In this document: in pieces, positions 2,409 through 14,507 of the stretch
How the letters are laid out: every line of letters starts with the position of its first letter
Position numbering within the stretch: position 1 is the first letter of the stretch
Source of the DNA: a virus
IMG/VR virus record: IMGVR_UViG_3300027759_000454
Span: 1 to 22,709 of that record
Direction: 5' to 3' (one strand)
Length of the DNA stretch: 22,709 bases
Program-made: the position numbers and the translations under genes
The notes under the pieces: model-generated
What the model saw: the letters and a program-made list of their open reading frames with translations, nothing else
The model's database searches: none
Told to the model about the DNA's origin: nothing

Positions 2409-4214
2409 ATGGCGAATCGCACCGCACCGAAGGCGCGAGCGAGCCGCAAGGCACCGGCTGCCCGTGCGCCCCGGCAGGTGACGGTCGTCAAGCAGGCCGT
2501 CCGCGCCCGCTACGACGCCGCGCAGACGAGCGACGACGCTCGGCACTGGGCCAACGCCGACTCGCTGTCGGCGAACGCCGCTCTCGTGCCTGAGGTGCGG
2601 CGGATCATCCGCAATCGCGCCCGGTACGAGCGGGCGAATAACGCCTACGTCCACGGCATCTGCACGACGAAGAGCAACGACCTCATTGGCATCGGGCCGC
2701 GGGTGTTGCTCTCGACCGGCAATCCGGTGGCTGATCGTGCGATCGGCCGGGCTTGGTACGACTGGTCGTGGCACGTCCGCCTGGCCGACAAGCTCCGCGT
2801 CGCCACCGAGGCGAAGTTCCTCGACGGCGAAGCGTTCGCGCTGCTGTTCACGAATCCACGGCTCGACTCGCGCGGCGTGCAGCTCGATCTGCGGCTCATC
2901 GAGGCCGATCAAGTCGCATCGCCGGCTTACCAGTGGCAGCAGACGGTGTCGCCGGACGGGTCGCTCGTGGACGGCGTGGAGCTTGACGTTTACGGGAACG
3001 TGATCGCGTTCCACGTCCTCAAGTCGCACCCCGGCTCTAACTACCTCATCGGCGTCAACGAGTACGACCGCATCGCCGCGCAGGACATGCTGCATTGGTT
3101 CCGCTCGACGCGCCCCGGCCAGCATCGCGGGATCTCTGAGCTGGCACCGTGCCTCCGGCTGACGGCGAACATGCGGCGGTACACGGAGGCCGTGATCCGC
3201 GCCGCCGAGATCGCCGCCGACCTTGCCGCGTTCGTCCACAGCAACTCGCCCGCCGCCCAGGTGGACGAGGTGGACCCGTTCGCCGCCATCGAGATCGAGA
3301 AGGGCACGCTCACCACGCTGCCCGAGGGCTGGGATATCTCCCAGCTGAAGGCCGAACAGCCGACGAACACGCACCAAGCATTTACGCGGACAATCCTCGG
3401 CGAGATCGCCCGCGGCGTGAATCTGCCGTACCACAAGGCGGCTTTCGACGCGAGTTCCTACAACTTCTCTTCCGCTCGCCTTGACGGCTCGCTGCACGAT
3501 CAGAACGTCCGCGTGGACCGCGACGAACTCGAGCGATCCTGGCTTGACCGCATCTTCTCCGCGTGGCTCGATGAAGCTCTGCTCGTCCCCGGCATGATCC
3601 CAGACGACCTTCCACCCGTCAGCGAGTGGAACTGGCAATGGGTTTGGAACGGCAACGACGGCATCGATCCGGTCAAGGAAAGCAACGCCACCGAGACGAA
3701 GCTCTCGACGCTCACAACGTCGCTCTCCGCCGAGTACGCCCGGCAGGGAAAGCAGTGGGACGAAGAGCTTCGGCAGATCGCTGCCGAGCGGCAGTTGATG
3801 GCAGAGCTTGGCCTGACGATCGGCAATCGGCCGTCGCAGATCGTCGTCCCGCAGTCGGACGCCGTCAACGCTGCCGCCGTGCCGAGCGTCGTGGCCGCCG
3901 AGTCGTACCAGCCGACCGCCGAGATGCGAGCCGAGGCCGAACGTGGCCTCGCGTGGCGTCGTGAGTTCGGCCGCGGCGGCACTGAAGTCGGCGTGGCCCG
4001 CGCCCGCGATATCGCCAACGGCAGACCGCTCTCGCTCGACACCGTCCAGCGGATGGCGAGTTACTTCGCCCGTCACGAGGTGGACAAGCAGGGGCAAGGC
4101 TGGAGCCCCGGCGAGGACGGCTATCCGTCCGCCGGCCGCATTGCCTGGGCGCTGTGGGGCGGCGACCCCGGTCAGGCGTTTGCCAATTCGATCACCGAGA
4201 GGGCCAACGCATGA
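2409..4214 (+). CDS. phage portal protein (lambda gpB-like) with extra C-terminal domain
   Basis: The portal forms the dodecameric channel at the capsid vertex through which DNA enters and to which the tail attaches. The 601-residue sequence has the lambda-type (Phage_portal_2) layout. A basic, Ala-rich N-terminus is followed by NNAYVHGICTTKSNDLIG, then by LDLRLIEADQV and FRSTRPGQHRGIS, and by the helix RRYTEAVIRAAEIAADLAAFV, and then YNFSSARLDG. Residues from about 504 to the end form a distinct small domain with GVARARDIANGRPLS, YFARHEVDK, GEDGYPSAGRIAW and LWGGDPGQA. I know this segment as a recurring appendage of phage head proteins, not as part of the portal core. The stop overlaps the next start (ATGA at 4211-4214). 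Confidence 0.9.
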   Translation: MANRTAPKARASRKAPAARAPRQVTVVKQAVRARYDAAQTSDDARHWANADSLSANAALVPEVRRIIRNRARYERANNAYVHGICTTKSNDLIGIGPRVLLSTGNPVADRAIGRAWYDWSWHVRLADKLRVATEAKFLDGEAFALLFTNPRLDSRGVQLDLRLIEADQVASPAYQWQQTVSPDGSLVDGVELDVYGNVIAFHVLKSHPGSNYLIGVNEYDRIAAQDMLHWFRSTRPGQHRGISELAPCLRLTANMRRYTEAVIRAAEIAADLAAFVHSNSPAAQVDEVDPFAAIEIEKGTLTTLPEGWDISQLKAEQPTNTHQAFTRTILGEIARGVNLPYHKAAFDASSYNFSSARLDGSLHDQNVRVDRDELERSWLDRIFSAWLDEALLVPGMIPDDLPPVSEWNWQWVWNGNDGIDPVKESNATETKLSTLTTSLSAEYARQGKQWDEELRQIAAERQLMAELGLTIGNRPSQIVVPQSDAVNAAAVPSVVAAESYQPTAEMRAEAERGLAWRREFGRGGTEVGVARARDIANGRPLSLDTVQRMASYFARHEVDKQGQGWSPGEDGYPSAGRIAWALWGGDPGQAFANSITERANA

Positions 4215-6091
4215 CAAATCTCTCGCTCCGTTCCGCCGTGCAGTTCCTTCGCGCCGACGCTGACGGCGAGGGCGAAGGGCTTTCGACGCCGCGTATTCCG
4301 CGGTTCTCGATGGTGGGCTACACGGGCGGAATCATCCGCCAGATGTGGAGCCGCGAGCCGATCGTCATCGACCTTGCCGGCATGACCGTGCCGTCGGTGA
4401 TCCCGATCGTCTTCGGGCACGACTACTCGCTCGAGGCCGTTCTCGGCCAGGGCACCGGCACCGTCGGCAATCAGCTCGTCATCGAAGGCGCGATCCTCGC
4501 CGCCGGCGAAGCGGCCATGCAGGTCGTGCAGCTCGGTGACCGCGGCTACCAGTGGCAGGCATCCGTTGGCGCTGACGTGGATGAGGAATACCTCGTCGCG
4601 TCGGGCGACACCGCACAAGTCAACGGGCAGACCTTCCAAGGTCCGGTCCGAATCGTAAAGCGCTCCACGCTGCGGGAGTGTTCGTTTGTAACCCTCGGGG
4701 CCGACGCAGCGACGGCCGTCACCATTACCGCCAAAACGGCGGGGGAGTCTCCTATGTCGAATGAGACGCAGGCCGCCGTCGAGGTCATGCCGACCGGCCC
4801 CGATGTTCAGCAGACCGACTCGATGCCGACCGGTCCTTCCGACGTGGCTTCGGCCGCGCCGAAGGTCGATCTCGCTTCGATTCGTGCCGAGGTGGTCGCC
4901 GATGTCACCCGCGAGGTGAAGGCGACGCTCCTCAAGGATCTCCGCGACGTTCGCGGCGGGCCGTCGATCCACGCCAGCAAGCCGGCTCTCGACGACGATC
5001 AGGTCACGATCGCCGCCATGCAGGTCGTCGGCGGGCTCGGCAAGCAGATCGAAGCCAAGTACGGTGATTCGCCGATGGTCGAGGCCGCAAACAAGCGGTC
5101 GCGCACGATCGGCCTGCAAGAAGTCCTCGTCAGCGCCGCTCGCAAGGGCGGGTATGACGGTGTCCACAAGGTCACGGCCGGGAACATCGGGGTGATTCTG
5201 CGGGCCGCGTTTGCGACCCACAACATCTCCAACATCCTCGCCGCGACCTACAACAAGTATCTCCTCAACGGCTTCGAGGCCGTCGAGTCGGTGTGGGATC
5301 AGATCTCGCTCGTGCGGCCGCTCAACGACCTGAAGGCCATCACCGGCGTTCGGCTCGACGGCGGCTTCGTGTTCGACGAAGTGGCTGGCGACGGGCGGCT
5401 GAAGTCGGCGGATGCCGGCGACGCGACCCGCACGCTCCAGGCAAAGACCTACGGACGGATCTCGTCCATCACCAGGGCGGACATCATCAACGACGACCTC
5501 GGGGCTCTGACGGCGGTTCCCCGCCGGCTCGGCCGCGGTGCAGCTCTGAAGTTCAACTCGGTGTTCTGGACCGAGTTCCAGGTCGGTGCGACCGCCAACG
5601 CCAGCTACTACCAGGGTGCTACCGCTGGTGCCGGCAACGCGATGGCGATCGGCTCGGTCGAGACTGCGTACGCTGCTTACCGGTCGCTCAGCGATCCGGA
5701 CGGCAACCCGCTCGGCATCACGCCGAAGATCCTGCTCGTGCCGGTCGGGCTGCGGATCACTGCCGACAAGATCCAGACGGGCAACACGCTGTTGGCAAGC
5801 TCGCTCGGCTCGACCTCGAGCCGTGTCGTCGAGCCCCAGGCGAACGTCCTGGCCGGAAAGTTCACGATCGTCGATTCGGCTTACCTCACCTCGTCCACGA
5901 CGTGGTGGCTGTGCGCCGACCCGAACGATCTGCCGGTCATGGAAGTCGGGTTCCTCAACGGTCAGCGGTCGCCGATTGTCGAGCAGGCGGAAGCCTCGTT
6001 CGACACCCTCGGCATCGAGGTCCGCGGGTACTTCGATTTCGGCGTGAGCAAGGCGGAAAGCCGCTCGTGCTACCGCATGGCGACCTCCTGA
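4211..6091 (+). CDS. prohead protease-major capsid protein fusion
   Basis: A single 626-residue reading frame carries a prohead maturation protease and the major capsid protein. The N-terminal part resembles the HK97/U35 serine protease fold: candidate catalytic His70 in VFGHDY and Ser158 in the ECSFVTLGAD strand. A low-complexity linker (about 180-225) rich in Pro/Thr/Asp and a charged helix (ASIRAEVVADVTREVK) look like a scaffold/delta region. From about 260 onward the sequence is capsid-like (Mu gpT-like): NISNILAATYNKYLLNGFEA, VWDQISLVRPLND, YGRISSITRADIINDDL, GRGAALKFNSVFW and an EVGFLNGQRSPIVEQ tail. ATG 4211 overlaps the portal stop and is preferred over an in-frame ATG at 4154 inside the portal gene. 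An in-frame ATG at 4754 (Met182) preceded by GGGGGAG could give a separate scaffold-capsid product. Confidence 0.88.
   Translation: MTNLSLRSAVQFLRADADGEGEGLSTPRIPRFSMVGYTGGIIRQMWSREPIVIDLAGMTVPSVIPIVFGHDYSLEAVLGQGTGTVGNQLVIEGAILAAGEAAMQVVQLGDRGYQWQASVGADVDEEYLVASGDTAQVNGQTFQGPVRIVKRSTLRECSFVTLGADAATAVTITAKTAGESPMSNETQAAVEVMPTGPDVQQTDSMPTGPSDVASAAPKVDLASIRAEVVADVTREVKATLLKDLRDVRGGPSIHASKPALDDDQVTIAAMQVVGGLGKQIEAKYGDSPMVEAANKRSRTIGLQEVLVSAARKGGYDGVHKVTAGNIGVILRAAFATHNISNILAATYNKYLLNGFEAVESVWDQISLVRPLNDLKAITGVRLDGGFVFDEVAGDGRLKSADAGDATRTLQAKTYGRISSITRADIINDDLGALTAVPRRLGRGAALKFNSVFWTEFQVGATANASYYQGATAGAGNAMAIGSVETAYAAYRSLSDPDGNPLGITPKILLVPVGLRITADKIQTGNTLLASSLGSTSSRVVEPQANVLAGKFTIVDSAYLTSSTTWWLCADPNDLPVMEVGFLNGQRSPIVEQAEASFDTLGIEVRGYFDFGVSKAESRSCYRMATS
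4754..6091 (+). other. possible internal translation start for capsid without protease
   Basis: ATG 4754 is in frame with the protease-capsid fusion and is preceded by the purine-rich GGGGGAG at 4741-4747, six bases upstream. Initiation here would yield a 445-residue protein beginning MSNETQ and lacking the protease domain, analogous in arrangement to the nested lambda C/Nu3 reading frames. This is inferred from sequence and position only. The alternative is that all capsid protein is made as a fusion and cut by the protease. Confidence 0.4.
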
Positions 6092-6112
6092 GCCGTGCCA
6101 GCGTAATCCGTG

Positions 6113-6145
6113 CCCGGCGGGCCTGGGATGTCCAGGCCCGCCGGG
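6113..6145 (+). terminator. strong hairpin after the capsid gene (no T-tract)
   Basis: CCCGGCGGGCCTGG (6113-6126) and CCAGGCCCGCCGGG (6132-6145) are perfect reverse complements, giving a 14-bp GC-rich stem with a 5-base loop, GATGT. It lies in the 94-base gap between the capsid gene and the cement-protein gene. No run of T follows, so it is not a canonical intrinsic terminator. It could be a partial terminator, an mRNA 3'-end stabiliser for the abundant capsid message, or a processing site. The structure is read directly; the function is inferred. Confidence 0.7.
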
Positions 6146-6185
6146 GTGACGCTCACCACAAACTCCAGACAAACGAGGCTCTTCG

Positions 6186-6545
6186 ATGGCAACTCTGAAG
6201 CAGAACATCGGTGACAGTTGGGACTACACCCCGTCGGCCGCGAAGGCCGTCGGTGATGTGGTCATTCTTGGCAAGGTCGTTGGCGTCGTGTGCCGGCCGA
6301 TCGCTGCCAGTGCCAAGGGATCAATCGCCGTTCGCGGCGTGTTCACCTTCGACAAGGTGACCGGCGGCGCTCTCACCGCCGGCTCTGTGGCCTATCTGCA
6401 CTCCAACCTCAAGGTCACTGGCTCCGCGACCACGACCGGCATCGCCGGCCTCGTGGCGGTCGATGCGGCTGCCGGTGACACGACGGTCGATGTGTCGATC
6501 AATCACGGCATGCTCTACGACTTGAACTCCACCGGCCCCGCCTGA
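6186..6545 (+). CDS. DUF2190-type capsid cement/decoration protein
   Basis: A 119-residue protein directly after the capsid gene. Recognisable features are the N-terminal MATLKQN, the GDVVILGKVVGVVCRPIAA strand pair, the RGVFTFDKVTG turn and an AGLVAVDAAAGDTTVDVSINHG end. These match the small beta-rich DUF2190 family, often automatically labelled as a RecA/RadA-like protein but encoded next to capsid genes and thought to be a trimeric capsid-stabilising protein. No Walker motifs are present, so the recombinase label would be wrong. The gene stands alone, not overlapping its neighbours, and is flanked by strong hairpins at 6113-6145 and 6561-6606, which suggests its mRNA level is set independently. 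Confidence 0.82.
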   Translation: MATLKQNIGDSWDYTPSAAKAVGDVVILGKVVGVVCRPIAASAKGSIAVRGVFTFDKVTGGALTAGSVAYLHSNLKVTGSATTTGIAGLVAVDAAAGDTTVDVSINHGMLYDLNSTGPA

Positions 6546-6560
6546 GCTTGATTCATCCCG

Positions 6561-6606
6561 CAAGCCGCCGGCGGTCGCCTCTCCTCGGGCACCGCCGGCG
6601 GTCTTG
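6561..6606 (+). terminator. second strong hairpin, after the cement-protein gene
   Basis: The arms CCGCCGGCGGT (6565-6575) and ACCGCCGGCGG (6591-6601) pair perfectly over 11 bp. The stem extends by CAAG (6561-6564) with CTTG (6603-6606) across one bulged T at 6602. The loop is about 15 bases. Each arm contains the self-complementary CCGCCGGCGG. No T-tract follows; the Shine-Dalgarno sequence of the next gene (GGAGG, 6613-6617) comes seven bases later. It may terminate partly, stabilise the upstream message, or modulate access to the next ribosome binding site. Confidence 0.65.
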
Positions 6607-6623
6607 TGTCTTGGAGGTGCCCC

Positions 6624-7049
6624 GTGGCTGACATGCTTTCCGACGGTGCCGCGTGGCTCGCCGACCAGTTCGCTGCGTCGGCGTCGCTCACCGTGGCATA
6701 CAAGCGAGGCGCGAACTCTTCGCAGTTCGTCGCCACGATCGGCAAGAGCATGTTCGAGTCGTCGGGCCAGAACGGTGTCACCGAGCAGTGGGAGAGCAGG
6801 GACTACATCGTCAAGACGGCCGACCTGCCGTACGGCGAGCCGCTGCGGGGTGATCTGATTGTCGAGGACATCGGCGGCGTGTCGGTGTTCTACGAGGTGG
6901 CCGCGCCGAGGGGAGTGCCGCTGTTTCATTACGGGGACGCCTTCCAGCACCTCGTTCGCGTCCACACGAAGCGGTCGGACCGCGATCAGACGTACATTAT
7001 CACGGACCAGGGCGAAGAGATCGTCGTGCCGCTGACCGCTCAAGGGTGA
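6624..7049 (+). CDS. predicted head-tail connector/head completion protein
   Basis: A 141-residue protein located where phages encode connector proteins, between cement and tail genes. GTG 6624 is preferred because GGAGG lies at 6613-6617; ATG 6633 (three codons later) is the alternative. Residues near the N-terminus, ADMLSDGAAWLADQF, form an amphipathic helix. The rest is beta-rich (SLTVAYKRG, GDLIVEDIGGVSVFYEVAA) and ends with HLVRVHTKRSDR and a short tail. This resembles the small head-tail attachment/gpFII-type proteins by size, order and general pattern. The family cannot be named from sequence alone, so the role is inferred from context. Confidence 0.6.
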   Translation: MADMLSDGAAWLADQFAASASLTVAYKRGANSSQFVATIGKSMFESSGQNGVTEQWESRDYIVKTADLPYGEPLRGDLIVEDIGGVSVFYEVAAPRGVPLFHYGDAFQHLVRVHTKRSDRDQTYIITDQGEEIVVPLTAQG

Positions 7050-7053
7050 CCGC

Positions 7054-7839
7054 ATGCCGCTTTTCAAGCGCGTTGACCAGTTGCCCGCGGCGACCGGCGT
7101 CACCGGCACCGACTTTCTGATTCTGTCGCGGCCGTCCGGCCCGACGGGCACGGTCGGCACGCGGGCGGCGACGCTGTCTCAGCTCCTGACGTTCCTCAAC
7201 ACCAACGGCGGGGCCACCGGCCTGACGGGTGCAACCGGGACCGCGGGTGCAGCGTCCACGGTGACCGGGCCGACGGGCGTGCCGGGCAGCAACGGTGCGG
7301 CCGGCAGCAACGGCGCGGCCGGGGCCACGGGGCCGACGGGCGCGGCGGGGGCCGCGGGCAGCAACGGCAGCGCCGGGGCGGCTGGCCCGACCGGCCCGAC
7401 CGGAAGTACCGGTGCGGCCGGCAGCAACGGAGCGGCGTCCACGGTGACCGGCCCGACTGGTGCGCCGGGTGCCGCGGGCAGCAACGGCGCGGCAGGCGAG
7501 CAGGGGCCGACTGGCCCGGCTTATCAAACTACCGTCACTGGCGTCTCGCTCTCGGGCACCGGCACATACAACCCGCTGACGATCGACGGCGCGTTCGACG
7601 TTTACTACCTCACGCTCGCCACAGGCGCGGCGATCCAGGCTCTGAACATTACGGGGCCGACTGGAACCACAAAGCAGTTTCTCGTTATCGGAACCACCGG
7701 CGCGGCGACGTTCAATCACGCGACGGGCGCGAACGCCAACGCTCAGTTCGGTGTTCCGTGGGCCGGGTCCATAGTCGCGCCTGCCAACGGCGGCAACGTG
7801 GTGGCGCAGTACGACGGCAATCGCTGGCGGGTGATCTGA
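7054..7839 (+). CDS. collagen-like repeat fibre protein
   Basis: A 261-residue protein with three parts. Residues 1-52 (MPLFKRVDQLPAAT, FLILSRPSGPT, TRAATLSQLLTFLN) resemble the N-terminal virion-anchoring segment of phage fibre proteins. Residues 53-156 are collagen-like G-X-Y triplets (GPTGPTGST, GAAGSNGAA), interrupted twice by the same AASTVT segment. The C-terminal domain (about 157-261) is beta-rich with SLSGTGTYNPLTIDGAFDVYYLTL and ends QYDGNRWRVI, probably the trimerisation or binding head. Collagen triplets form triple-helical shafts in phage tail and side fibres. The stop overlaps the next ATG (TGATG at 7837-7841), so the two proteins are probably made together. The host-binding role is inferred. 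Confidence 0.85.
   Translation: MPLFKRVDQLPAATGVTGTDFLILSRPSGPTGTVGTRAATLSQLLTFLNTNGGATGLTGATGTAGAASTVTGPTGVPGSNGAAGSNGAAGATGPTGAAGAAGSNGSAGAAGPTGPTGSTGAAGSNGAASTVTGPTGAPGAAGSNGAAGEQGPTGPAYQTTVTGVSLSGTGTYNPLTIDGAFDVYYLTLATGAAIQALNITGPTGTTKQFLVIGTTGAATFNHATGANANAQFGVPWAGSIVAPANGGNVVAQYDGNRWRVI
7252..7460 (+). repeat. internal repeats within the collagen-like region
   Basis: A 17-base unit GCGTCCACGGTGACCGG starts at 7252 and again at 7435, 183 bases (61 codons) apart. GGCAGCAACGG recurs several times between them. The unit encodes the AASTVTG interruption of the triplet helix. The arrangement suggests expansion of the shaft by unequal recombination or slippage in multiples of codons. Confidence 0.7.
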
Positions 7840-8699
7840 TGCCGCTCCCGGTTTTCGTTTCAGAGACGTTGCACCACGAAGCCATCGACTGGGCCAAGCG
7901 AGTCTCGGACAACGGGGGCACTATTTCCTCGAGCGTGATTCGTGCCGTGAGCGCATTTTGCGCCGCAGCGGATTCAACTGGCCCCGGCGGTTTTCGATCC
8001 GCCATCTACCGGCTCAATCCGTTTGCGGGCGGCAACCTCTCTGGCTGTCTCGTTCCGCTCTACCGTGGGCCGACGTTTGGCGGGACCACCTTCGGAAACG
8101 CGACCGACACTAACGTCAATTTCGTTTCGGCCGACTTCGTTGAGACGGGGGCAACTGGCGGGCTCAAGGGCAACGGTACGAACAAGTATTTGCAAACGGG
8201 ATTGGCGTCTAACAGTTTGCCTTCAGCCACCAGCGTTCACCTGTCTGCGAGCGCGACCCAAGCGGCGACAGCCGGAAACCCTGTCTTTTTGGGCTCGTAC
8301 AATAACACGACGCCCGGCTTGCTTGTTCTCGACGATTTCTGCTCGTTCAACGCGACGGGGAGGTCATACCGTCACGGAAGTCTCAGCGGTGGCCAGTTTC
8401 CTGTCGTGTCGTCTCCGGGGGCGACAGAAGCTCACGTCATCGGCACTAGGACAGCGGCAGCGTCGGCCGCGATCTACCGCGCGGGTTCGTTATCCACCAC
8501 CAACACAACCAACCTTTCGACAGCAAATAATGCTTTGGGAATGTTTGTCTTCAACGCCAATTTCAATGGCTCTCCGCTCTCCGGGCAATTCTCGGCCGGT
8601 CGGCTTCGCATATACAGCATCGGAACAGGGCTCAACGCCACGCAGGCCGCCGCGTTCTCCGCTGCGGTAATCCAATTCAACGCTGCCCTCGGGAGGTGA
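7839..8699 (+). CDS. putative adhesin/fibre protein, lower GC
   Basis: A 286-residue protein overlapping the stop of the collagen-like gene, which fixes ATG 7839. It opens with MPLPVFVSETLHHEAIDWAKRV, then a Ser/Gly/Thr/Asn-rich body with VPLYRGPTFGGTTFGNATDTNVNF and LKGNGTNKYLQTGL, and ends GRLRIYSIGTGLNATQAAAFS. The KGNGTNKYLxT and GRLRIYSIG patterns recall LamG/concanavalin-like virion proteins of phages, in which the last segment closes a beta-sandwich. Base composition is lower than around it: the 60 bases at 8521-8580 contain 26 G+C. Such drift is common in receptor-binding genes. Function is inferred; a carbohydrate-binding fibre is my best guess. Confidence 0.6.
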   Translation: MPLPVFVSETLHHEAIDWAKRVSDNGGTISSSVIRAVSAFCAAADSTGPGGFRSAIYRLNPFAGGNLSGCLVPLYRGPTFGGTTFGNATDTNVNFVSADFVETGATGGLKGNGTNKYLQTGLASNSLPSATSVHLSASATQAATAGNPVFLGSYNNTTPGLLVLDDFCSFNATGRSYRHGSLSGGQFPVVSSPGATEAHVIGTRTAAASAAIYRAGSLSTTNTTNLSTANNALGMFVFNANFNGSPLSGQFSAGRLRIYSIGTGLNATQAAAFSAAVIQFNAALGR

Positions 8700-8703
8700 C
8701 GCG

Positions 8704-9027
8704 ATGCTTTTGCGTGACCTCTCCATGCCGATCTCCGAAACCGATGCCCGCGGGCTTGCGCTGGTGTTTTTGCCCGTCCTGGCCGCAAGGCTCGGCCAAC
8801 TCCATGCCGCTCACGGAAGCACAAATTGTGTTCCGGTTCCGTTGCCGCTCACCGATGGGCGATTGATGCTGTGCGCCGACGTTCTCACCGAAGTGAGGCC
8901 CGGCGGGCTCCTGGCCGCCATGTGGGCCAACGCCGATCAAGCCGTCCTCGGGGCGAGCGTGGAGGTGATCCCGTGGCATGAAGCGGTGGCGATGCTGCCA
9001 GAGCCCGACCCGATTGAGTGGGGATGA
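8704..9027 (+). CDS. hypothetical phage protein, 107 aa
   Basis: ATG 8704 is preceded by GGGAGGTGA, which overlaps the upstream stop, so coupling is likely. The protein has an Ala/Leu-rich first half (ETDARGLALVFLPVLAARLGQLHAAHG) that would form an amphipathic helix, then strands around LPLTDGRLMLCADVL, and an acidic end PEPDPIEWG. I do not recognise a family. It sits between a fibre gene and an HNH nuclease; a chaperone or accessory for the fibre is possible but not supported beyond position. Confidence 0.65.
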   Translation: MLLRDLSMPISETDARGLALVFLPVLAARLGQLHAAHGSTNCVPVPLPLTDGRLMLCADVLTEVRPGGLLAAMWANADQAVLGASVEVIPWHEAVAMLPEPDPIEWG

Positions 9028-9368
9028 ATATGTTCGACCTTTTCCGCAAAACCGACCCCGGCGCGATCGCCGCTGGCGTTCCCCGGTCTTCACGATGGCC
9101 AGCCTGGGTGAAGGCGTTTCTCCGCGGCAAGGTGTGCGCCTGCTGCGGATCAAAGGGCCCGCTGACTGGCCACCACAAAATCCCGTTCCACATCCGGCCA
9201 GACCTAGAGCTTGTCGAGAGCAACGTGGCTCCGATATGCGACGGCACGGACTGCCATCTCGTCATCGGCCACATGAAAGACTTCAAGCTCTACAACCCCG
9301 ATTTCGACGCCGATGCTGCGGCCTTCCTCGCCAAGCGGCTGGCCGCAAAGAAGGCGCAGGGTCGCTGA
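9024..9368 (+). CDS. HNH endonuclease
   Basis: A 114-residue protein of the small phage HNH type. A zinc ribbon is formed by C38-x2-C41 and by C72 with C77. The catalytic core is GHHKIPFH (His50/His51), an Asn at about 67 (ESNVAP) and CHLVIGH (His78, His83). ATG 9024 overlaps the previous stop (ATGA). A GTG at 9018 and an ATG at 9030 are alternatives. In HK97-like phages a small HNH protein works with the terminase in genome cleavage, but that gene normally lies next to terS. Here it is about 7 kb downstream of terL, between the fibre genes and the glycan cassette. It could therefore be either the packaging HNH or a homing-type nuclease. Confidence 0.85.
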   Translation: MNMFDLFRKTDPGAIAAGVPRSSRWPAWVKAFLRGKVCACCGSKGPLTGHHKIPFHIRPDLELVESNVAPICDGTDCHLVIGHMKDFKLYNPDFDADAAAFLAKRLAAKKAQGR

Positions 9369-9426
9369 CGCACCCCCTCCGCTCCCCCCGCCCCTCCCGG
9401 CACGATTGCCAGCCGAGGAGGACCGC
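9369..9426 (+). promoter_or_regulatory. C-rich gap before the glycan cassette, with strong RBS
   Basis: The 58-base gap starts just after the HNH stop with GCACCCCCTCCG (9370-9381), continues as a pyrimidine-rich run, and ends with GAGGAGGA before ATG 9427. CCTCC (9376-9380) is complementary to the Shine-Dalgarno GGAGG (9417-9421), so the messenger could fold to mask the start. Similar C-rich elements occur at other gene junctions in this window. No promoter is evident. Confidence 0.4.
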
Positions 9427-10497
9427 ATGCAAGAACACCTACACGCCTTGGCAATCCACGCCTTTTACTGCGGCGAGATCGACACCGGACGACGAGCAAG
9501 CGACCGGCTTTTGAACAGGCCGCTGCCGGACGACCTTGAGCGCCAGGCTCGGGCGAATCGCACGTGGTACACGCCGCTGCTGGCCGAACTGGCGTTCCAC
9601 ACGCCCCAGCGGATCGAAGTCGAGCCGGCGCACGCCGGCTGGACGACCTTTAACCCGACGATCATCCCCGACGGCACCGGCCTCTTGGCGATCGTGCGGT
9701 CGAGCAACTACCGGATTGACGCGGCCGGACGCTACGTGATCCCGCCGGAGGACGACGGGGCGATCAAGACCGAGAACATCCTCTGCCGGATCGACCGCGA
9801 CGGGAACGCTTACGACCGGCGGGTGATCGTCCCGCCGGCCTACGAGCCGAACGGCTACCCGGTCCACGGCCTGGAAGACTGCCGGCTACGGCGGACGCCC
9901 CGCGGCGTCAGCGTCTCCGCGACGGTCCGCGACGCGGCACCCTGGGCAGGGCAGTGCCGGATCGGGGTGGCCGATCTCGACGTGGGCGAGGCCCGGCTGC
10001 ACGGGCTTCGGGTGCTGGAATGGGAAGGGCTCCAGCCTCACGAGAAAAATTGGATGCCGATCGACGGCCAGGACGGCTGGATGTACGCAGCCAACCACGG
10101 CGGGCAGACGGTCACGGTGGCGGCCGACGCCGACATGCCGGGCGTCTACGAGGTGACAGGCCGGGGCGCGGCTCCGCACCTCGCCAGGGGCTTCCGGGGC
10201 GGCGGGCAGCTCGTCCCGGTCCGCGGCGGCTGGCTGGCGATCGTTCACGAAGTGGCGCACATCGAGGACGGCCGGCGAGCCTACGAGCATCGCTTCGTGT
10301 GGTTCGACGCCGGGTTCACGCTTCGCCGGTGGTCGCCGCTGTTCTCGTTCAAGGGCACGAAGTCGATCGAGTTCGCCGCCGGTCTGGCAGCTCTGGACGG
10401 GCAGATCGTCGTCGCCTTCGGGGTAAACGACGCCGAGGCGTGGACGACAACGCTCGCAGAGGAGGACGTATGCGATCTGCTCCAGCCCATATCGTGA
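9427..10497 (+). CDS. GH130-like five-bladed beta-propeller protein
   Basis: A 356-residue protein; ATG 9427 is chosen for its GAGGAGGA ribosome site rather than the long upstream in-frame extension. Residues 5-55 (ALAIHAFYCGEIDTGRRASDRLLNR) look like a TPR-type helix pair. From 75 on, the propeller signature appears in order: FNPTII (75-80), IVRSSNYRID, a HGLEDCRL segment in which E150-D151-x-R153 corresponds to the GH130 EDPR motif with Cys for Pro, EKNWMP (206-211), RGGGQLVP (257-264), VHEVAH (273-278), YEHRFVWFD and IEFAAGL. GH130 enzymes are mannosyl phosphorylases or hydrolases. This subgroup is often found with or fused to TPR glycosyltransferases, so a role in glycan synthesis or trimming is likely. 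Activity is not proven by sequence. Confidence 0.75.
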   Translation: MQEHLHALAIHAFYCGEIDTGRRASDRLLNRPLPDDLERQARANRTWYTPLLAELAFHTPQRIEVEPAHAGWTTFNPTIIPDGTGLLAIVRSSNYRIDAAGRYVIPPEDDGAIKTENILCRIDRDGNAYDRRVIVPPAYEPNGYPVHGLEDCRLRRTPRGVSVSATVRDAAPWAGQCRIGVADLDVGEARLHGLRVLEWEGLQPHEKNWMPIDGQDGWMYAANHGGQTVTVAADADMPGVYEVTGRGAAPHLARGFRGGGQLVPVRGGWLAIVHEVAHIEDGRRAYEHRFVWFDAGFTLRRWSPLFSFKGTKSIEFAAGLAALDGQIVVAFGVNDAEAWTTTLAEEDVCDLLQPIS

Positions 10498-11168
10498 CCG
10501 GGTACGTCCGGCTCAACAGCGAGCATCGCGGCCACGAGCGGTACACCGATCTTGGCCAGCAGCTCGTTGATGTCGGGCTTCCGACGGTCGCGTTCCTCGA
10601 TCCGTCGGCAGTCATGCGGTCCCGGCCCGGCCTGCTGCGGCTGCATGCGTCTCTTGAGCGCTGCTGGTACTGGCAGGCGTCCGACGGGGCCGGGCTGCCG
10701 GACGGCACGGTGGGCAAGGACACGCGGGCGTTCCTGAGCGTTCAGCACCAGAAGACGGCGTGGCTCGCCGACGCTGCCAGCTACTCCGACGCGGAAGTGC
10801 TGCTCTGGATCGATTTCGGAATCTTCCACGTGCCGGGCATCACGGCCGACGGCATCCGACGCCTGGCGGAGCGTGCCGGCGAGCGGTGCCGCGACCGGGT
10901 CGGCATGGCGTCGATCTGGGGGCCGCCGTTCGCACCCGTGCCGCCGGAGAGGGTGGCGTGGCACTGTGCCGGCGGGGTGCTCGCCGTGCCGCGGAACATG
11001 GCGTCGTGGCTCGACATGGCGGTACGGATTGAGGCCCAGCGGCAGATCGAGGCCGGGCAGGCTACGTGGGAGGTGAACACGTGGGCCAACGTCTGGCGGC
11101 TGCACCCGGATTGGTTTGACTCGTGGCGCTGCGACCACAACGGCACCATCCTGGCGGGCTACCAATGA
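10470..11168 (+). CDS. HtrL/YibB-like putative glycan-related protein
   Basis: A 232-residue protein whose ATG at 10470 lies 28 bases inside the end of the propeller gene and is preceded by GGAGGA at 10461-10466. Recognisable segments are TGYVRLNSEHRGHERYTDLG at the N-terminus, the central EVLLWIDFGIFHVPGIT, FAPVPPERVAWHCAGGVLAVPR, and TWEVNTWANVWRL near the end. The W-I-D-x-G-I-F-H stretch resembles the HtrL/YibB (WlaTC) family, which is found in polysaccharide loci and is thought to have a GT-A-like fold, with the Asp as a possible metal ligand. The family call is tentative. Its place between a GH130-like gene and two glycosyltransferases supports a glycan role. Confidence 0.6.
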   Translation: MRSAPAHIVTGYVRLNSEHRGHERYTDLGQQLVDVGLPTVAFLDPSAVMRSRPGLLRLHASLERCWYWQASDGAGLPDGTVGKDTRAFLSVQHQKTAWLADAASYSDAEVLLWIDFGIFHVPGITADGIRRLAERAGERCRDRVGMASIWGPPFAPVPPERVAWHCAGGVLAVPRNMASWLDMAVRIEAQRQIEAGQATWEVNTWANVWRLHPDWFDSWRCDHNGTILAGYQ

Positions 11169-11851
11169 ACGACTACGTCGTGGTGATCCCGACACGCAAC
11201 CGCTACCGGCTCTGCCTGCGGGCGATCCGGTCGGCGCTGACGCAGACCGTCCCGCCGGCGGAAGTGTTCGTCGTGGACGACGCCTCCGACGATCCCCGGT
11301 ATCAGTGGCTTGAGGAGATCGTCGGCAGCCCGCGGCTGACGGTCCTCCGGCGAGCCGTGTCGAGCCGCGAGGAAACCGGGGCGGGCTTTGCCGTCGGGAC
11401 CGTGCGAAACGAAGCGATCCGGCACGTGCTCAAGATCGGATTCTCCGGGTGGGTGGCGTTCCTCGACGACGACGACGAATGGCTGAAGACGAAGGCCGCG
11501 GTCCAGTTCGCGGCCGTCGGGTCGAACGGCCGGTACGGGGTGCTGTGTTCCAACGCCTTCAACCGCGATCCCGCCGGCGTTGTCAGCGGCTACCACCACG
11601 GGACGCAGGGCGTGCAGATCACCGACACCACCCGCGACGTGACCGCGATCTGCCGGGCCATGAATCCCGTCATCAACTCGACCGCGATGATCCACAGCAA
11701 GATCGTCGAGCGGTTGGGCGATCAGCAAGCCGTCGGCTTTGGCGAGGACTGGGACTACTGGCAGCGGGCTTCCAGGCTCACCGGGATCATGCGGGTCGAA
11801 GAGCCGCTGGCGTGGTACACGGTCGGCAATCCGAAGGAGTACACGCTATGA
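11165..11851 (+). CDS. GT2-family glycosyltransferase
   Basis: A 228-residue GT-A glycosyltransferase. It begins VVVIPTRNRYRLCLRAIRSAL (nucleotide-binding strand and helix), has VVDDASDD (Asp38/Asp39), RNEAIR (81-86), a FLDDDDEW metal-binding DxD equivalent (Asp101-104) and GFGEDWDYWQRAS with the probable catalytic base Asp195. It lacks membrane segments, so it is soluble and should use a nucleotide-sugar donor. The sugar and acceptor cannot be read. The start overlaps the upstream stop (ATGA at 11165-11168) and the stop overlaps the next start (ATGA at 11848-11851), so the genes are tightly coupled. Confidence 0.9.
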   Translation: MNDYVVVIPTRNRYRLCLRAIRSALTQTVPPAEVFVVDDASDDPRYQWLEEIVGSPRLTVLRRAVSSREETGAGFAVGTVRNEAIRHVLKIGFSGWVAFLDDDDEWLKTKAAVQFAAVGSNGRYGVLCSNAFNRDPAGVVSGYHHGTQGVQITDTTRDVTAICRAMNPVINSTAMIHSKIVERLGDQQAVGFGEDWDYWQRASRLTGIMRVEEPLAWYTVGNPKEYTL

Positions 11852-12882
11852 GGATCGGCGTTTACGCTCTCGCCAAGAACGAAGCCAAGCACGCGGAAGC
11901 GTGGGCCGCGGCGACCGCCGACGCCGATGTCCGCGTGGTGACCGACACCGGCTCGACCGACGGCACCGTCGAGCAGCTCCAGGCGGCCGGCGTGACGGTG
12001 GCCCGGTCCTACGTCGTACCGTGGCGGTGGGATGTGGCGTGGACGCAGTCGCTCTGCAATCTGCCGGCCGATGTCGATGTGGCCTTCCGCGTCGATCTCG
12101 ACGAGCGGCCCCAGCCCGGCTGGCGAGCGGCAATCGAAGCGGCTTGGGACGGCAACGCCAACAACCTCGTCTACGACTACTGGTGGTCGATGGACGACGC
12201 CGGCCGTCCGCTCCTGCGTTTCCACTGCGATCGGGTCCACGCCCGGTCGGGATTCGTCTGGCGGCAGGCCACGCACGAAGGGCTCGTCTGCTGGTCGGGC
12301 GAGAAGGTGCAGCGGAAGTGCGACGGCCTGGTGGTCGAGCACCACCGGGACAAGAACAAGGCGCACAAGACCGACCTCGATTTGCTGAAGGTCGCGGTCA
12401 ACGAGTCGCCGGCCGACGCACGGGCGCGGTGGTACTACGCCCGCGAGCTGGACTACGCGGGCATTCCTACCGCGGCGGGCGAGTTCGCGGGCTTCTTGAA
12501 GATGGCCGGCGGATCGCCGACGGAGCGTGCCTACGCTCTTCGGCGGCTGGCGTCGATCACCGGCGACGGGGCTTACCTCGAGCGGGCCGCGAGGGAATCG
12601 CCGGGCGAGCCCGACGGGTGGGAACGGCTGGCGCTTGCCGCTCACCACGGCGAAGACTGGCCGCGGTCGCTGGAGTTCGCCGAGCGGGCAATTGCCTCGC
12701 CGGTCAGCACGCACGCCACAGACCCGCTGGCGAAGGCCAGGGCGTCCGAACTGGCGTCGATCGCCCTTTGGCACCTCGGACGCAAGGCGGACGCCCTGAC
12801 GCATGCCAGGGCCGCTGCCGCACAATTGCACTGGGACGAGCGGATCGTCGGCAACGCAGCGGCAATGGAGGCGAGCCTGTGA
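11848..12882 (+). CDS. GT2-family glycosyltransferase with TPR-like C-terminus
   Basis: A 344-residue protein with AAGGAG ahead of ATG 11848. The GT domain spans about 1-170: YALAKNEAKHAEAW, VVTDTGSTDGT (31-41), a RVDLDERPQPG segment with the DxD-like D83/D85, then ATHEGL (His143/Glu144). This is the KNE...DTGSTDGT class of small GT2 enzymes. From about 190 to the end, Ala-rich helices with WYYARELDYAG, YALRRLASI and IALWHLGRKADALTHARAAAA look like degenerate TPR repeats, a pairing common in this family and probably used to bind a protein acceptor or partner. Its terminal TGA overlaps the GTG of the next, structural, gene. Confidence 0.88.
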   Translation: MRIGVYALAKNEAKHAEAWAAATADADVRVVTDTGSTDGTVEQLQAAGVTVARSYVVPWRWDVAWTQSLCNLPADVDVAFRVDLDERPQPGWRAAIEAAWDGNANNLVYDYWWSMDDAGRPLLRFHCDRVHARSGFVWRQATHEGLVCWSGEKVQRKCDGLVVEHHRDKNKAHKTDLDLLKVAVNESPADARARWYYARELDYAGIPTAAGEFAGFLKMAGGSPTERAYALRRLASITGDGAYLERAARESPGEPDGWERLALAAHHGEDWPRSLEFAERAIASPVSTHATDPLAKARASELASIALWHLGRKADALTHARAAAAQLHWDERIVGNAAAMEASL

Positions 12883-13325
12883 GCATCCAAGCGGACATCA
12901 TCACGGCGCTCGTCGCCTCGCTCGACGCGGTGACGTTCACGGCGACGGCCGCGACGGTGCTCGTCGAGAGCAAGAACTTTCCAAGCTACGACATCGAAGA
13001 CCTTGCCGACCCGGTGATCTGCGTCACCGACGGCTCAATTGAGTCGGAGCGGATCGCCCGGTCGTCTCACATGCGGGACTACGCGGTCGAGATTTACCTC
13101 GCCCGGCACACGCCGGAAGAGGCGGATTGCGACGTGATGCTTGAGATGCTCGAGGAGCTGCTGGGCAAGCTCGAAGATCACAACTGGCCGGGGATCACGT
13201 GGCCGACCGGCGTCACGTCGCCGCAGACGATTGTCGTCGAGAAGAATCCCGGTGACGCTCTGCAAGAGCGGAACGTGTGGCGGGCGGGGATCGTCGTGAC
13301 TTTCAGGGTGCCGAGGAGTCACTGA
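12879..13325 (+). CDS. predicted tail terminator/tail completion protein
   Basis: A 148-residue protein starting at GTG 12879, within GTGA shared with the end of the glycosyltransferase gene; GGAGG lies at 12867-12871. The pattern VSIQADIITALVASLDAV, a central strand pair (RDYAVEIYLARHT), an acidic helix (CDVMLEMLEELLGKLEDHNW) and the end NVWRAGIVVTFRVPRS is typical of tail terminator proteins (gpU-like), which cap the tail tube and join it to the head. Being followed by a gp10-like gene and tail-tube-like genes supports this. The family is inferred from architecture and order, not from a signature motif. Confidence 0.6.
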   Translation: MSIQADIITALVASLDAVTFTATAATVLVESKNFPSYDIEDLADPVICVTDGSIESERIARSSHMRDYAVEIYLARHTPEEADCDVMLEMLEELLGKLEDHNWPGITWPTGVTSPQTIVVEKNPGDALQERNVWRAGIVVTFRVPRSH

Positions 13326-13326
13326 T

Positions 13327-14097
13327 ATGACATGGATGATGCCGAAGCAGCGGGCGACGATCACCAGTGCCGGCGGCATCAAGTTCGACGTTGATCTGTC
13401 GATGCTGGAGCCGTCGGAAAAGCGGGCCATTCGGAAGGCTCAAAACATCACGCTCTTTAAGTGGGCGGAACTGAAGACCCGCGTAGGCACCGGGCGAGCG
13501 AAGGCGCTCAAGATCGCCGGCATGGAAGTCCGTCGGGCCACTCAACGCTCGATGTCCGTCCGCAAGGAACTGACGTTTCCGAAGTTCATCGACGGCGGAA
13601 CGAAGGACGGCCGGCAGATCGTCATCAAGCGATACCAGATTCCGAAACCGGACCGCGTGACGAGTTGGAAGACCGACAGATTCCCCAAGGGATTTCTGCG
13701 GTCGGACATCATCTCCGACTACGACTCGGTCACGCAGTCGGTGGTGATTGGCCCGCGGATGGCTCCGTCGATGAACAAGCTGCACGAAGTCGGCGGCAGC
13801 GTGTCGCTGTGGTTCACGCCTGGCTCGGTCATCCCAAAGCGAGCCCCGAAGAAGTTCGCCGGGGCCGTCTTCGGCACCCTGTCCAACGAGCCGAAGGGCG
13901 TCCGCGAGTTCGTGGAATACCGCCGCGGCCGGCGTCTGATCTGGGGCGAGAGTTTCTTCTGGGGCCGTCGCCGGGTGAAGGGTCGTCGGTACATGGGACA
14001 AGGCGTCGAGAAGGCCGGGCCGAAGATTCCGGAAGCGTTCCGCGACTTCATTTCCGGCCCGGCGTCCGGCGGTCAGAAGCAGCTCAAGTTGTTCTGA
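13327..14097 (+). CDS. HK97-gp10-like tail completion/minor tail protein
   Basis: A 256-residue, strongly basic protein. The segments QNITLFKWAELKTRVGTGRAKALKIAGMEVRRATQRSM and IGPRMAPSMNKLHEVGGSVSL (the x-K-L-H-E-x-G-G motif) are the hallmark of the HK97 gp10-like family, which helps close the head-tail interface. A basic patch YRRGRRLIWGESFFWGRRRVKGRR precedes a C-terminal YMGQGVEKAGPKIPEAFRDFI helix, also usual in the family. The GAGGAG at 13313-13318 gives the ribosome site for ATG 13327. It is larger than the usual 120-200 residues; the extra length lies in the middle and in the basic region. Confidence 0.78.
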   Translation: MTWMMPKQRATITSAGGIKFDVDLSMLEPSEKRAIRKAQNITLFKWAELKTRVGTGRAKALKIAGMEVRRATQRSMSVRKELTFPKFIDGGTKDGRQIVIKRYQIPKPDRVTSWKTDRFPKGFLRSDIISDYDSVTQSVVIGPRMAPSMNKLHEVGGSVSLWFTPGSVIPKRAPKKFAGAVFGTLSNEPKGVREFVEYRRGRRLIWGESFFWGRRRVKGRRYMGQGVEKAGPKIPEAFRDFISGPASGGQKQLKLF

Positions 14098-14168
14098 CCC
14101 GCCACACCCCCTCCGGCCTTGCCGCCCTGCCGCCGACGATAGAGCCACACCCCTACGCGGAGGCTCTC
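14098..14168 (+). promoter_or_regulatory. C-rich gap with two CCACACCCC elements and RBS
   Basis: The 71-base gap holds CCACACCCCCTCCGG (14102-14116) and a second copy CCACACCCC (14145-14153), and ends with CGGAGG (14158-14163) before ATG 14169. CCTCCG (14110-14115) is an exact complement of CGGAGG, so the leader could fold and hide the ribosome binding site of the first tail-tube-like gene. No promoter or T-tract terminator is seen. Confidence 0.45.
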
Positions 14169-14507
14169 ATGGCCGGCGAAACGATCGTTCTCGGCAAGAA
14201 CGTCACCTATACGGGGATCAGCAACGTGAGCGACGGGTCGATCACGACCACGTTCACGGAGATCGACAAAACGAAGGCGGGCGACACCGAGCGGACGATT
14301 CTGCGCGGCTGGGCCGAGCAGACGCTCGACCTCACGTGCATCGACGCGCCGGGCGTGTCTGTCGGCAGCGTGGTCGCCGTCAGTGCCACCGGGGCCAACG
14401 GCCACAACCTCTCTTCGGTCAAGTTCCTCGTGACGAGCGTCAGCCAGTCCGAGCCGCTCGACGACAAGGTGACGTTTTCCGTTTCCTGCACCCGCGGCGT
14501 CCAATAA
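14169..14507 (+). CDS. tail-tube-like protein 1
   Basis: A 112-residue beta-rich protein, first of three related small proteins in tandem. ATG 14169 has GGAGG five bases upstream and is chosen over a long in-frame extension that would run through the gp10-like gene. Features shared with the next two are a short N-terminus MA-x-x-LG, the strand ISNVSDGSITTTFTEIDKTKAGD, and the end VTSVSQSEPLDDKVTFSVSC. Position between tail completion genes and the tail assembly chaperone is where the major tail (tube) protein lies. One of the three is therefore likely the tube subunit; which one cannot be told. Confidence 0.65.
   Translation: MAGETIVLGKNVTYTGISNVSDGSITTTFTEIDKTKAGDTERTILRGWAEQTLDLTCIDAPGVSVGSVVAVSATGANGHNLSSVKFLVTSVSQSEPLDDKVTFSVSCTRGVQ

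Follow-up and report, generated by a model that had tools for sequence, protein, structure and literature searches.

A four-gene cassette with a GH130-like propeller in a phage structural operon and its possible role in virion fibre glycosylation

A cassette of four genes for predicted glycan enzymes was found in the virion structural operon of an uncultured phage. The DNA analysed here (the window) is the entire 22,709-base IMG/VR record IMGVR_UViG_3300027759_000454, whose terminase has only distant relatives among isolates (28% identity). Its main genes, all on the plus strand, encode in order the terminase, the portal, a fused protease/major head protein, the head decoration protein, a protein of 147 amino acids (aa), a collagen-like protein, an adhesin-like protein, a small protein, and an HNH protein. 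Then come the four cassette genes (genes 1 to 4), a neck-like gene, more tail genes, and the tape measure gene. An earlier note, made from the letters without database searches, had read the four genes as packed head to tail at 9427-12882; the coordinates and overlaps confirm this, and all four genes are intact. The four junctions of the cassette, three internal and one to the gene at 12879, are all 4-base start/stop overlaps. Translation of the cassette is therefore probably coupled to that of the structural gene downstream.

The note had also placed the cassette between an HNH nuclease and tail genes. The flanks are indeed phage structural genes, but the neck label of 12879-13325 is positional. 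An HNH open reading frame (ORF) upstream of the cassette is rare in relatives (10 loci). A collagen-like gene (PF01391) and an adhesin-like gene (phrog_17104, function unknown) do lie upstream. The collagen-like protein contains 19+8 Gly-X-Y triplets, with a repeat of the GPTGAAGAAGSNG type and Thr at Y in several of them. It is proposed as the acceptor of the cassette sugars, and the adhesin-like product as an alternative acceptor; a 38% relative of the latter is encoded directly 5′ of the cassette in two related contigs (L058 and L056). The cassette genes are under purifying selection, with a ratio of nonsynonymous to synonymous substitution rates (dN/dS) of 0.05-0.24 against relatives at 83-98% identity. 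No membrane-type segment was detected in the four cassette proteins by a Kyte-Doolittle scan (maximum KD19 1.47). No flippase gene was seen beside the cassette, which does not have the gene set of gtr-type lysogenic serotype conversion. Scanning for promoters and terminators found nothing beyond chance level, with no promoter-like site in 6000-14500, and position alone suggests late expression.

Table 1. Features of the window in and around the cassette (GT, glycosyltransferase; TPR, tetratricopeptide repeat)
Position	Strand	Feature	Support or remark
4211-6091	+	Major head protein fused to maturation protease, single ORF	phrog_4523
6606-7049	+	147-aa protein between head decoration and collagen-like genes	
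7054..7839	+	Collagen-like virion protein, 261 aa	PF01391 E 1.9e-11; PHROG tail-fibre/collagen-like minor tail families
7839..8699	+	Adhesin/fibre-like protein, 286 aa	phrog_17104 (function unknown) E 6e-12
8704..9027	+	Small protein, 107 aa	Often kept beside the adhesin in relatives
9018..9368	+	HNH endonuclease-like ORF	PF01844 E 0.0017; phrog_144 E 1e-6
9427..10497	+	Gene 1: GH130-like five-bladed propeller with N-terminal three-helix segment, 356 aa	ATG; AGGAGG-like site ahead
10494..11168	+	Gene 2: HtrL/YibB-like GT-A glycosyltransferase, 224 aa	GTG start; predicted fold
11165..11851	+	Gene 3: GT2 glycosyltransferase, 228 aa, DDDD motif	ATG; PF00535
11848..12882	+	Gene 4 (last of cassette): GT-A and C-terminal TPR glycosyltransferase, 344 aa	ATG; phrog_13126
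12879..13325	+	Neck/connector-like structural gene	GTG start; label from position, without family match

Direct Pfam and PHROG searches of the gene 1 and gene 2 proteins gave nothing useful. Thus, alignments and predicted folds were used for these two genes, the folds being compared by Foldseek and VIA-align. The AlphaFold2 model of gene 1, built from an alignment of 31 relatives (A1), has a predicted local distance difference test score (pLDDT) of 93. Its best fold match is the GH130 phosphorylase Teth514_1788 (Z 24.3; 9gph, Z 24.3 over 267 residues). Further GH130 enzymes, including the mannoside synthase Uhgb_MS, gave Z values of 21-24, the GT108 enzymes of Leishmania about 18, and GH43, GH62, and GH117 enzymes 16-18. 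The window protein itself has no PF04041 match, staying below the curated cut-off, and PF04041 matches 4 of the 31 relatives (best E 9.2e-5). The EDCR, KNWM, and HE motifs of the note were verified as E150-D151-C-R153, K207-N208-W209-M210, and H274-E275, and the GH130-like assignment first made from them is supported by the predicted fold and by the PF04041 matches of relatives. Among 74 homologues, D151 is kept in all 74, N76 in 72, and D335 in 70, while R153 and E315 are invariant. By weak alignments and spacing, N76, R91, E150, D151, and D335 are equated with Asn74, Arg89, Glu141, Asp142, and Asp363 of BT3780, which serve in mannose binding or catalysis (PMC4599007); the N76-R91 spacing is the same as that of Asn74-Arg89. 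From spacing, K207 is possibly the equivalent of BT3780 Lys199, the beta-1,2 determinant. Gene 1 is therefore predicted to encode a GH130-type propeller that keeps the catalytic Asp and the mannose-binding residues. The protein may be a phosphorylase, a synthase, or a hydrolase; hydrolases do exist among GH130 enzymes. Phosphorylases of the family would be marked by three basic residues that bind phosphate and hydrolases by two Glu, positions at which the sequence alignment is not reliable.

Searches of the PDB with single divergent homologue sequences gave chance-level matches only. A mixed profile of phage and cellular GH130-like sequences (A4) reaches GH130 structures weakly (E 0.09) and was too diverse for scanning viral sequences. 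EKNW is conserved among the bacterial sequences partly by construction, as EKNWMP served as one of two search patterns. An Ignavibacteriae metagenome-assembled genome has a 722-aa ORF with two tandem GH130-like domains (L173:6829-8994), which has a 137-triplet collagen repeat and GT-TPR genes in its vicinity. This tandem homologue passes the PF04041 cut-off (31 vs 26 bits).

The gene 2 model (pLDDT 94.7) has a GT-A fold, nearest to those of LARGE1 (Z 13.9), GT6 enzymes (about 12), and the capsid glycosyltransferase of PBCV-1 (2p6w, Z 11.1). This GT-A fold is clear, and the similarity to HtrL/YibB, named in the note, is weak. The window protein has no match to PF09612 (HtrL_YibB); of 25 relatives, 5 match it weakly, the best at E 0.057, and a bacterial fusion protein (L198) matches it at E 1e-4, slightly under the family cut-off. 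Genes 3 and 4 could be assigned as the note had named them. Gene 3 is a GT2 enzyme by PF00535 (E 1.2e-14, 55 bits vs a cut-off of 23.3). Gene 4 matches phrog_13126 (beta-1,4-glycosyltransferase) at E 1.7e-59, and its D-T-G-x-T-D and D-x-D motifs are invariant in 16 sequences (alignment A3). The TPR part is weak in the window protein (TPR_16, E 0.003) and clear in a homologue (L215).

Is the arrangement kept in other phages? Relatives of genes 1, 2, and 4 were recruited from many environmental viral contigs, and the ORFs of their GC-rich loci were called by codon usage. About a hundred contigs show the arrangement, and thus it is not due to chance. When loci were recruited by gene 4 alone, a GH130-like gene was found within 4 kb in 45 of the 45 that extend more than 2.5 kb upstream. 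In 60 of 64 gene 4-recruited loci, down to 49% identity, the cassette is directly followed by neck-region genes. Between the constant GH130-like and GT-TPR genes lie one to three variable genes, which encode an HtrL-like protein, a second HtrL-like protein, a GT2 enzyme, methyltransferase 24, or an FkbM methyltransferase. This looks like a glycan pathway whose first and last parts are constant and whose elaboration varies. Two further phage contigs (L092 and L093) have collagen-like repeats, a GH130-like gene, and an HtrL-like gene together, in the order collagen, GH130, HtrL in L092. In this second phage group, sulfotransferase-looking proteins (judged by eye) are encoded upstream of the GH130-like and HtrL-like genes (L090:5565-6215 and L092:5205-5900).

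When GTDB genomes were scanned with A1, 40 loci were obtained, and their domains were assigned by profile searches. It was revealed that a GT-TPR and a GH130-like domain share a single ORF in many bacteria (L174-L191, L193, and L195-L197), while in L192 and L198 the GH130-like domain is fused to an HtrL-like one. Judging from its domains, a 1,248-aa ORF in L186 is the phage cassette order in condensed form: GT-TPR, GH130-like, DxD glycosyltransferase, and methyltransferase 24, followed by a separate, close GT-TPR gene. In L192 the operon consists of HtrL-GH130, collagen-like, and GT-TPR genes, and in L198 of HtrL-GH130, GT-TPR, and collagen-like genes, in both cases on one strand with gaps of less than 100 bp. 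Collagen repeats of at least 8 triplets lie inside the fetched flanks in 14 of the 24 genomes searched, vs about 1.4 expected at most if each collagen match in the 24 genomes is treated as independent. Nine of the 14 collagen-positive genomes belong to Rhizobiales and should be taken as one or two events. In Betaproteobacteria, GH130-GT2 fusions of about 690 aa (L205-L210) may represent another, related use of such a fusion.

Similar neighbourhoods were found in isolated phages. In cyanophage DSL-LC02, a GH130-like homologue adjoins a collagen-like protein and tail fibres, and in phage S-SCSM2R another adjoins a baseplate gene. In the Actinomycetia phage DSL-LC01, two collagen genes are followed, two genes further on, by a GT-TPR homologue. 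Downstream of its GH130 homologue, DSL-LC02 has a gene that combines TPR, FkbM methyltransferase, radical SAM, and SPASM parts (L213:8959-11112). In DSL-LC01, a tryptophan-halogenase-like gene lies between the collagen genes and the GT-TPR homologue (L215:10433-12004), which suggests a further fibre modification.

I propose that the four enzymes work as a protein-glycosylation line on virion fibre proteins, which are often but not always collagen-like, and I give this reading a probability of roughly 0.7. The virion-fibre part of the earlier note thus gains from the bacterial operons and fusions, two unrelated phages, and the precedent of the Clostridioides difficile enzyme SgtA, while the alternative of host-surface modification is less probable. 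The GT-TPR enzyme would hold the repetitive fibre protein, collagen-like or adhesin-like, by its TPR part and put the first sugar on Ser/Thr; this step is placed first by analogy with SgtA, and here several triplets have Thr at Y. The HtrL-like and GT2 enzymes may then extend or branch the glycan, and the GH130-like propeller may add, exchange, or trim a mannose-type residue. A building or remodelling step is favoured over free hydrolysis because of the steady pairing and fusion with glycosyltransferases. In relatives, the methyltransferase would cap the glycan. The glycosylated fibre would then be assembled into the virion. In this scheme I infer the acceptor, the sugar identity, the order of steps, the direction of the GH130-like reaction, and the expression time. 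More tentatively, the GH130-fold enzyme and the TPR-guided glycosyltransferase might form a mannosyl-transfer step on collagen-like and other fibre proteins, in a hitherto undescribed kind of glycosylation line common to bacteria and phages.

Several observations weigh against fibre glycosylation. Some cassette-bearing relatives have no collagen repeats (L057-L060, L262, L282, and L287), so that dependence on a collagen-like gene was too strong a claim. Those collagen-free relatives that were examined retain fibre/adhesin-type genes where the region is covered. In a 197-kb virus contig (L055), the cassette lies outside a structural operon and the collagen genes are elsewhere on the contig. The bacterial GH130-GT2 fusions have no collagen nearby. 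Collagen repeats do occur in 30 of 37 contigs with the cassette vs 4 of 12 without it, but this within-clade link is not significant after dereplication by clustering, because the cassette-negative phages are essentially one sister lineage. As an observation apart, the contig L055 carries a GH130-like gene and a 768-aa methyltransferase/GT34-like/GT-TPR fusion (L055:11876-14182) amid nucleotide-metabolism genes.

The sister lineage (L130, L131, L135, L145, L147, L149, L163, L166, and L170) has a terminase about 69% identical to that of the window. The cassette was not found in its contigs. Between the same flanking genes it has genes for proteins of 92, 197, and 122 aa and then a fibre-like protein of 720-887 aa. 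Thus, the fibre block and the cassette appear to have been exchanged as one unit. The sister lineage also has a 229-aa version of the 147-aa protein encoded at 6606-7049 of the window.

The absence of the cassette together with the fibre block, while the capsid and neck genes are kept, speaks against the idea that the same enzymes act mainly on another virion protein (capsid, decoration, or tail tube) rather than on the fibre or collagen-like protein. In favour of this idea, mycobacteriophages have glycosylated capsid and tail-tube proteins, according to work cited in PMC12619734, and the cassette adjoins the neck genes more constantly than it adjoins a collagen-like gene. In cellular operons and unrelated phages, however, the cassette is paired with collagen-like or fibre genes and not with capsid or neck genes, and I regard this idea as unlikely. 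The cassette could instead alter a host surface glycan during infection, for example to block the adsorption of competing phages. This is how glycosyltransferases beside tail fibres are usually read, as in pelagimyophages (PMC7029224), and the collagen-free relatives would fit it. Such a role seems rather improbable for a cassette without a flippase, polymerase, lipid-carrier, or membrane protein, in a near-constant place of the head-to-neck structural operon, with bacterial homologues in operons with collagen-like genes and with a TPR-type architecture that is that of a proven protein glycosyltransferase.

It is very improbable that the GH130-like protein is a virion-borne or released glycan degrader for penetrating the host capsule, with the glycosyltransferases serving separately, even though hydrolases are found in GH130 (PMC4599007) and other glycosidases appear among the fold matches. 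In many genomes the protein is fused to glycosyltransferases, in the tested loci it always accompanies a GT-TPR gene, and no virion-attachment domain was seen in it. The known GH130 enzymes are exo-acting and are not known to be capsule depolymerases. Modification of phage DNA, a known role of phage glycosyltransferases that has been proposed for freshwater actinophages (PMC10202952), is barely credible here, as no modified-base synthesis gene was recognised in the window, a TPR partner and a collagen linkage have no place in it, and the bacterial homologues adjoin surface collagen genes.

If glycosylation of fibre proteins by the cassette is true, a widespread uncultured phage group coats its own fibres with sugar by means of a compact set of overlapping enzyme genes, and in bacteria these enzymes decorate surface proteins of the collagen-like kind. 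The GH130 fold would gain a role in making protein-linked glycans. The cassette would also offer a small system for producing glycosylated collagen, and it could be tested whether fibre glycans control adsorption or stability. A glycosyltransferase near a tail fibre should then not always be taken as a modifier of host O-antigen.

GH130 phosphorylases, beta-1,2-mannosidases, Uhgb_MS, and the Leishmania GT108 MPTs share with gene 1 the five-bladed propeller and the Asp of ED-x-R. In contrast to them, gene 1 has only 10-17% identity, lies below the Pfam cut-off, and has extra N-terminal helices and constant glycosyltransferase partners. Gene 2 has the GT-A fold in common with PBCV-1 2p6w, LARGE1, and GT6, while the identity is about 5-14% and the families differ. 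The C. difficile SgtA is a GT-A and TPR protein whose gene adjoins bclA3, and it adds O-linked N-acetylglucosamine (O-GlcNAc) to Thr of the collagen repeat (PMC7157674). SgtA and the phage GT-TPR enzyme share the order GT-A then TPR, a similar length (358 vs 344 aa), and an adjacent collagen-like gene. The acceptor of SgtA is Thr in the Gly-X-Thr triplets of BclA3, and the likeness to the phage system is one of architecture. The SgtA system differs in acting on a spore coat and not a virion, and no GH130-like or HtrL-like partner is reported for it. Mycobacteriophages likewise encode glycosylation of virion proteins (Freeman et al. 2023, cited in PMC12619734); there the C-termini of capsid and tail-tube proteins are modified, and the citing account names neither a GH130-like propeller nor a collagen acceptor. 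Mimivirus L230 (PMC4691112) likewise represents virus-encoded glucosylation of collagen-like virion proteins, but it is described as a hydroxylase/glucosyltransferase acting on hydroxylysine. In the open-access literature, I found neither a GH130-fold partner nor a GH130/GT-TPR pair described, nor the occurrence of this pair in both bacterial collagen operons and phages. The system is therefore novel in part: phage virion glycosylation and viral collagen glycosylation are already known, and the GH130-like partner is new.

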